44,418 bases of DNA, from positions 1-44,418 of the forward strand of contig JANQDZ010000101.1 in assembly GCA_028278645.1 (NCBI GenBank), in the 5' to 3' direction. The notes beneath the pieces are model-generated. The model was not told where the DNA came from and did no database searches. It saw only the letters and a program-made list of their open reading frames with translations. This document shows, piece by piece, positions 4,417 through 5,114 of this stretch. The position numbers were made by a program, and so were the translations under genes. This DNA comes from Longimicrobiales bacterium. GTDB lineage: Bacteria; Gemmatimonadota; Gemmatimonadetes; Longimicrobiales; Gaopeijiaceae. Each line of letters opens with the position of its first letter. Position 1 is the stretch's first letter.

Positions 4417-4440
4417 CCAAAAGGCCCCGACAAGCGGGGC
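4417..4440 (-). terminator. Intrinsic terminator downstream of repeat unit B
   Basis: On the minus strand GCCCCG-CTTGT-CGGGGC followed by CTTTTGG. It ends the second non-coding unit (4447-4626) and faces the end of the S51 peptidase gene, whose stop is at 4399. Confidence 0.65.
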
Positions 4441-4446
4441 GCATCT

Positions 4447-4626
4447 AAAGGCGCCGGCCGAATGGAGTTGCGGACGCCGGATGCTCATTCGCCCCCAAAA
4501 GGACGTTTCAGCTGAAACGTCTTCTGACCACAGCAAGCACATTCACCGCCCATCCTCGCTCGTCTCGGGGATCAGCGATAGGAAAAACCTCGACTCCCCT
4601 GCCCCTCGGCTCGAACCGAGGTTCTC
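4447..4626 (-). repeat. Non-coding tandem unit B, possible small RNA gene
   Basis: A direct repeat of 4682-4861, offset 235 bp. Hand alignment gives about 20 differences in roughly 172 gap-free positions (near 88% identity). Both copies keep a perfect 20-bp palindrome (GACGTTTCAG and its complement, here 4502-4521) and end on the minus strand in GGCCGGCGCC, the same bases that end tRNA-Cys. Each is followed on the minus strand by a terminator hairpin, which argues for minus-strand transcription. No frame is conserved as protein between copies. The strand is inference and the RNA family is not recognised. Confidence 0.5.
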
Positions 4627-4644
4627 ATCCGCCGAGAGGCCATG

Positions 4645-4680
4645 AGAAAAGCCCCGGATCCCGAAAGGGACCAGGGCTTT
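4645..4680 (-). terminator. Intrinsic terminator downstream of repeat unit A
   Basis: AAAGCCC (4648-4654) pairs with GGGCTTT (4674-4680), with an inner stem of GATCCC/GGGACC around GAAA. Read on the minus strand it ends in CTTTTCT. Confidence 0.65.
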
Positions 4681-4681
4681 C

Positions 4682-4861
4682 CAAGGCGCCGGCCGGATGG
4701 AGCTGCGGACGCCGGATGCTCATTCGCCCCCAATAGGACGTTTCAGCTGAAACGTCTCCTGACCACAGCAGGCACGTTCACCGGCGTTCCTCGCTCGTCT
4801 CGGGGGTCAACCCCAAGGAAAAACCTGACCTCACATGCCCCTCGACTCGAACCTTCGGTCC
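4682..4861 (-). repeat. Non-coding tandem unit A, possible small RNA gene
   Basis: First copy (in minus-strand order) of the duplicated unit described at 4447-4626. The palindrome is at 4738-4757. In this copy CGCCGG and CCGGCG flank the palindrome and can pair, giving a longer closed structure on the minus strand; in copy B that pairing is weakened by substitutions. It begins about 20 nt after the tRNA-Cys terminator, leaving little room for a separate promoter. It may therefore be made by read-through, or its promoter lies inside the unit. Confidence 0.5.
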
Positions 4862-4882
4862 GATCCGGCCAGAATGCCAACG

Positions 4883-4917
4883 AAAAACGCTCGGTCCCGA
4901 TTGGGACGGAGCGTTTT
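4883..4917 (-). terminator. Intrinsic terminator of the tRNA-Gly/tRNA-Cys transcript
   Basis: AAAACGCTC (4884-4892) pairs with GAGCGTTTT (4909-4917), with GTCCC/GGGAC continuing the stem. On the minus strand it ends in GTTTTTCG, five bases after tRNA-Cys. Confidence 0.8.
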
Positions 4918-4921
4918 CCAG

Positions 4922-4993
<72 letters not shown>

Positions 4994-5041
4994 AAAAAAG
5001 AAGAAGGGGCGACGCACGGCTTTTCAGCGACTCGCCCCCAG

Positions 5042-5114
5042 AGCGGGAAACCGGACTCGAACCGGCGACCCCAACCTTGGCAAGGTTGTGCTCTACCAAC
5101 TGAGCTATTCCCGC
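5042..5114 (-). tRNA. tRNA-Gly (GCC)
   Basis: A 73-nt cloverleaf without encoded CCA. Acceptor GCGGGAA/TTCCCGC, anticodon stem CAACC/GGTTG with loop TTGCCAA (anticodon GCC), T arm GCCGG-TTCGAGT-CCGGT, discriminator U. It lies 48 nt upstream of tRNA-Cys on the same strand. Confidence 0.97.

Follow-up and report, generated by a model that had tools for sequence, protein, structure and literature searches.

tRNA-linked repeats (TLRs) were first described in Escherichia coli in 1978. The E. coli set comprises 22 TLRs at ten loci, defined by a tail of 18-19 bp identical to a tRNA or an rRNA, and has no known function (PMC8144298). The K-12 set includes rrA/rrB/rrF. The three rrn TLRs are located between dual terminators, are reached by read-through transcription, and in vitro bind both Hfq and CsrA; deletion of all three has modest effects, and an early claim that the tyrT TLR acts in the stringent response was retracted (PMC8144298). 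In Rfam, the tyrT repeats of K-12 are represented by RtT (RF00391). 3'ETS-leuZ and other small RNAs derived from tRNA trailers likewise originate from the region 3' of a tRNA, but they have no tRNA-tail repeat with a conserved inserted domain. It should be mentioned that the term tRNA-linked repeats is hardly used in the open-licence literature, which was the scope of our search, and that earlier reports from outside E. coli are possible.

The window analysed here is the whole stretch of 44,418 nucleotides that forms contig C73 (JANQDZ010000101.1) in the 4.9-Mb draft genome of a Longimicrobiales bacterium (phylum Gemmatimonadota). On its minus strand, a tRNA-Gly gene, a tRNA-Cys gene, terminator T0, unit 1, terminator T1, unit 2 and terminator T2 follow one another (Table 1), and the genes around them (amidohydrolase, peptidase S51, RecN-like, NAD kinase) are ordinary chromosomal genes. 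The first-pass annotation had described two similar tandem copies at 4417-4881, an interval that spans both units but misses T0, and its description was borne out. Without gaps, the units are 87% identical over 147 nt, which BLAST stretches to about 170 nt at 88%; both contain the same perfect 20-bp palindrome and finish with the 3' end of tRNA-Cys, from the T-loop to the discriminator base (15/15 identical positions in unit 1, 14/15 in unit 2); and each is followed by a terminator, as is tRNA-Cys itself, the stems of T0, T1 and T2 being mutually unrelated.

Table 1. Features of the tRNA-Cys locus in the window. Stem strands are given in the direction of the minus strand.
Feature	Position	Strand	Basis or remark
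tRNA-Gly(GCC)	5041..5114	-	First gene of the tRNA unit; ARAGORN; Rfam RF00005, 70.2 bits
tRNA-Cys(GCA)	4921..4993	-	Host tRNA with the copied 3' end; ARAGORN, Rfam, sequence
Source of the copied block in tRNA-Cys	4936-4922	-	
Terminator T0, between tRNA-Cys and unit 1	4880..4917	-	Inverted repeat 4884-4898/4903-4917, 93%, then T run
TLR unit 1	4684..4872	-	R1 match, 109 bits
Unit 1, P1 5' strand	4872-4863	-	Fold
Unit 1, P2	4862-4848	-	Fold
Unit 1, P5	4841-4838/4805-4802	-	Covariation
Unit 1, P3	4796-4793/4703-4700	-	Covariation
Unit 1, P4	4787-4781/4715-4709	-	Covariation
Unit 1, palindrome GACGTTTCAGCTGAAACGTC	4737..4756		20 bp; apical part of P4
Unit 1, copied tRNA tail ATCCGGCCGGCGCCT	4698-4684	-	
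Terminator T1, 3' of unit 1	4644..4680	-	Hairpin and T run
TLR unit 2	4449..4640	-	R1 match, 86.7 bits; P1 weaker
Unit 2, palindrome GACGTTTCAGCTGAAACGTC	4502..4521		20 bp
Unit 2, copied tRNA tail ATTCGGCCGGCGCCT	4463-4449	-	1 mismatch to tRNA-Cys
Terminator T2, 3' of unit 2	4417..4441	-	Hairpin and T run

The order tRNA-terminator-unit-terminator is also the layout of the E. coli rrn TLRs. Like the E. coli repeats, which lie in tandem 3' of a tRNA or rRNA gene, between terminators, and end with the same 3' sequence as that gene, the units of the window are found immediately 3' of a tRNA on the same strand and share its 3' end; two tandem copies are present here, and tandem copies occur at other loci as well. 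The copied block of 15 nt is shorter than the 18-19 of E. coli because the host tRNA has no encoded CCA. Further differences are found in the inner domain (P3-P5) and in the hosts, tmRNA being an additional host in Gemmatimonadota. We interpret the units as a tandem TLR pair, that is, as structured small RNA genes, with transcription predicted to reach them by read-through at the tRNA terminator, and give this interpretation a probability of roughly 0.8. It is based on the location of the units, the origin of their tails, the conserved fold and the complementarity between P1 and the tail.

A DNA search gave weak matches behind other tRNAs of the same genus, and an alignment of 11 copies found there was used for a covariance model, R1. 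With this model, the element was detected in 70 of 121 genomes of its own Gemmatimonadota family, with up to 14 matches per genome and a best E-value of 5e-27, and in 46 of 298 genomes across the phylum, the four outside the family being weak. The arrangement is far beyond chance, since in relatives it is seen again 3' of dozens of other tRNAs. The hosts in the family are tRNA-Ser, -Pro, -Cys, -Arg, -Leu and tmRNA; in the genome of the window itself, 12 places match at E 0.001, including places behind tRNA-Leu, tRNA-Arg and tmRNA, and some of the 12 carry a tRNA-Gly-like tail. The tmRNA case was seen directly at C43:45905-46013, where the element lies behind tmRNA and carries its copied 3' end; other copies also end in tmRNA 3' sequence.

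A same-strand upstream tRNA was detected for about 90 of 133 non-redundant copies (hosts Ser, Pro, Cys, Arg and Leu), and most of these copies end in 14-18 nt identical to it. About 65 copies are directly 3' of a same-strand tRNA, with a tail identity of 8-18 nt, usually 14-17. The position-wise identity between tRNA and copy is 1.0 from nucleotide 59, 0.49 at nucleotide 58 and 0.13 at nucleotide 57, and drops again beyond the tRNA 3' end; the identity within the block is partly fixed by the choice of pairs, whereas its borders are not. The copied block begins at nucleotide 59, in the T-loop, and runs as far as the discriminator base; judged from the sequences, every copy carries the tail of the particular tRNA that hosts it. 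Additionally, in many members the 5' end of the element pairs with the copied tail to form P1. The pairing with the own tail has a mean of 7.4 bp, compared to a maximum of 5.75 in 500 permutations, and at least 8 bp are formed by 53% of the copies with their own tail and by 1.8% with unlike tails.

The unit folds into a domain of about 110 nt with the conserved stems P2-P5, in which P4 is swollen at this locus by insertion of the palindrome. Over 130 distinct rows, both sides vary in 13 of the 14 pairs, and 95.7% of the cells pair. The covariation score was 0.421 (shuffles, 0.098; slid partners, no higher than 0.062), in an alignment fitted to the model, which raises the score, and with a statistic that ignores kinship. 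Compensatory changes can also be read straight from the sequences: P3, GAGC/GCTC, varies as GATC/GATC, GACC/GGTC and GACT/GGTC. The folding z-score is -2.8 for unit 1 and -0.8 for unit 2, and unit 2 may be partly decayed because it folds less well than unit 1. Its weaker P1 and unremarkable folding energy were counted against the small RNA interpretation, as were two E. coli findings mentioned above, the retracted stringent-response claim and the modest outcome of deleting the rrn TLRs. The proposal of repeated small RNA genes in the first-pass annotation stands at the sequence level, where it is favoured by the further copies, the covarying orthologues, the position on the tRNA strand and the placement between terminators.

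The events that would follow from the proposed interpretation can be outlined. RNA polymerase would read through the tRNA-Cys terminator into the units; a sigma-70 scan of the unit region found no promoter, and such a scan is weak evidence in this phylum. P1 would then mimic the T-stem/acceptor helix, so that the tRNA 3'-maturation machinery would trim the 3' end of the unit and release a stable, structured RNA, which may act as a small RNA. The tandem copies would have arisen by local duplication between the repeated tails.

The palindrome had been regarded as a piece of the unit, and this part of the earlier description was not upheld. Of the three occurrences of GACGTTTCAGCTGAAACGTC in its own genome, two are in the units and one is within a gene, and a sister form of the palindrome is present in 16 copies in a relative (G037). 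In three genes the palindrome (GACGTTTCAGCTGAAACGTC or GACGTTTCCGCGGAAACGTC) is in frame and reads DVSAETS (L004, 1501-1522; L008, 1501-1523; L012, 1501-1523), and insertion into reading frames is a known behaviour of palindromic elements. Because it is found on its own at other places, and within genes in frame, it was rejected as part of the RNA; the best view is that of an independent dispersed repeat that entered P4 ahead of the unit duplication.

Another form of the element has neither P1 nor P2, and its domain is lodged within a tRNA remnant, in the T-loop between nucleotides 58 and 59; this subset was also counted against the small RNA interpretation. The examples cited here were read by eye. 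The hosts are sometimes displaced tRNA 3' halves, beginning at the anticodon loop, which resemble what integrases leave (L045, L065, L072, L225). At L015 (1519-1642) and L016 (1474-1589), both from G001:C286, degenerate 5' parts of tRNA-Pro/tRNA-Ser run into the element at the T-loop; L015 combines a tRNA-Pro 5' part with a tRNA-Ser tail, so its two ends come from different tRNAs.

Such members, and the exact T-loop boundary, are what would be expected if a small non-autonomous DNA element entered tRNA T-loops with a recombinase supplied from elsewhere, doubling the tRNA 3' end into an att-like site, and if its hairpins were DNA structures that the recombinase recognises; the structure could then act as single-stranded DNA instead of RNA. 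Additionally, Ser, Pro, Arg, Leu and Cys tRNAs and tmRNA are favoured by integrases too. We consider this origin unlikely. The conserved covariation and the compensatory changes in P1 require long-term selection on the structure, and near-identical inserts behind unlike tRNAs were not found: pairs with unlike tails mostly have a similarity of 0.80-0.88, and values above 0.95 belong to tandem neighbours or to the two copies at contig ends, which share one tail. A recent transposition was rejected for this reason. The genome has 10 integrase matches, none of them on C73 or on the contigs with strong copies (C7, C58, C67, C101), and an integrase att remnant was rejected because none is on the contig of the window. 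The insertion footprint suggested in the first-pass annotation was right in so far as the shared tail is a duplicate of tRNA sequence, but it is not explained by any integrase-bearing element.

It could also be proposed that tail and second terminator form a back-up 3'-end and termination module, which would shield tRNA maturation if the first terminator leaks, with a domain that does not act in trans. The order tRNA-terminator-unit-terminator would agree with such a role both here and in the dual-terminator rrn operons of E. coli (PMC8144298), but the conserved internal domain P2-P5 would be left unexplained, and we regard this as rather improbable. A functionless, neutral tandem duplication of the tRNA 3' end and trailer, in line with the common tandem copies with duplicated trailers (L010, L062, L083) and with the seemingly decayed unit 2, is very improbable and already disfavoured by the covariation, since neutral duplicates would lose a trailer-to-tail domain that is conserved and covarying across genera and whose motif is common to several phyla.

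In the tyrT repeats of E. coli, GGGGAAGGAT pairs with ATCCTTCCCC, and the repeats of K-12 follow the same plan as the window units (GGGGAAGGATGAGAA...AGGTTCGA.TCGAG...AATCCTTCCCCCACCACCA). Both have a P1 that includes the copied tail, a GATGAGAA...GGTTCGA.YCGAG motif, a P2 hairpin and a tail that starts in the T-loop, whereas the inner domain is rearranged. Only the two tRNAs of the window reach an Rfam gathering threshold, lower matches being at chance level. RF00391 (cut-off 45 bits) has no match in the window and none above the cut-off in 58 genomes of the family, with a positive E. coli control. R1 in turn gives the E. coli copies only 5-11 bits, and formal membership in RtT was rejected, as the two models barely recognise each other.

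A motif derived from both RtT and the Gemmatimonadota element, GATGAGAA-N(3-12)-GGTTCGANYCGAG, was scanned against 84,980 species genomes; tRNA proximity and tail copy played no part in it. It was found in at least 116 stretches, of which 20 were at stretch edges. Among the 96 others listed, 88 are just 3' of a same-strand tRNA and 75 have a copied tail of 12 nt or more; for other tRNAs in these stretches, a downstream copy was found in 3/56 and an upstream copy in 0/56. The hosts include Tyr, Lys, Gln, Ser, Val, Arg, Pro, Cys and Glu. The stretches come from Gammaproteobacteria, Zetaproteobacteria, Lentisphaerota, Verrucomicrobiota, Bacteroidota/Ignavibacteria, Saccharibacteria and Gemmatimonadota, a range to be read with care for phyla with a single bin, since several genomes are metagenome bins or apparently contaminated (L205 is enterobacterial-like). 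Within this motif-selected set, R1, trained on Gemmatimonadota only, detects the Lys copies of Rahnella with E-values of 3e-6 to 3e-5. The exact motif was also observed on three viral contigs (L210, L212, L213), with near-identical surroundings and no detected tRNA; possibly a phage carries a related element, or the match arose by chance.

On balance, we lean slightly towards the view that TLRs are old structured small RNAs that cross phyla, take their 3' strand from the host tRNA or tmRNA, have a 5' strand refitted to this tail through compensatory changes and have a common function. If so, there would be one family of tRNA-tailed RNAs with a shared function beyond Enterobacteria. The fold, the tail-matching rule and the orthologues in several phyla turn TLRs from an oddity into a family open to search, mutation tests and comparison, and suggest a possible route by which small RNAs hitch-hike on the expression and 3'-end processing of tRNAs.

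Finally, a further dispersed repeat, about 200 bp long and without adjoining tRNAs, was observed in six near-alike copies on other contigs of the same genome (C101, C22, C79, C4, C84 and C24; L227-L232), and shows a weak likeness to the TLR core (GAGCCGAGCGGCC...CCGCGAGACCGCC).
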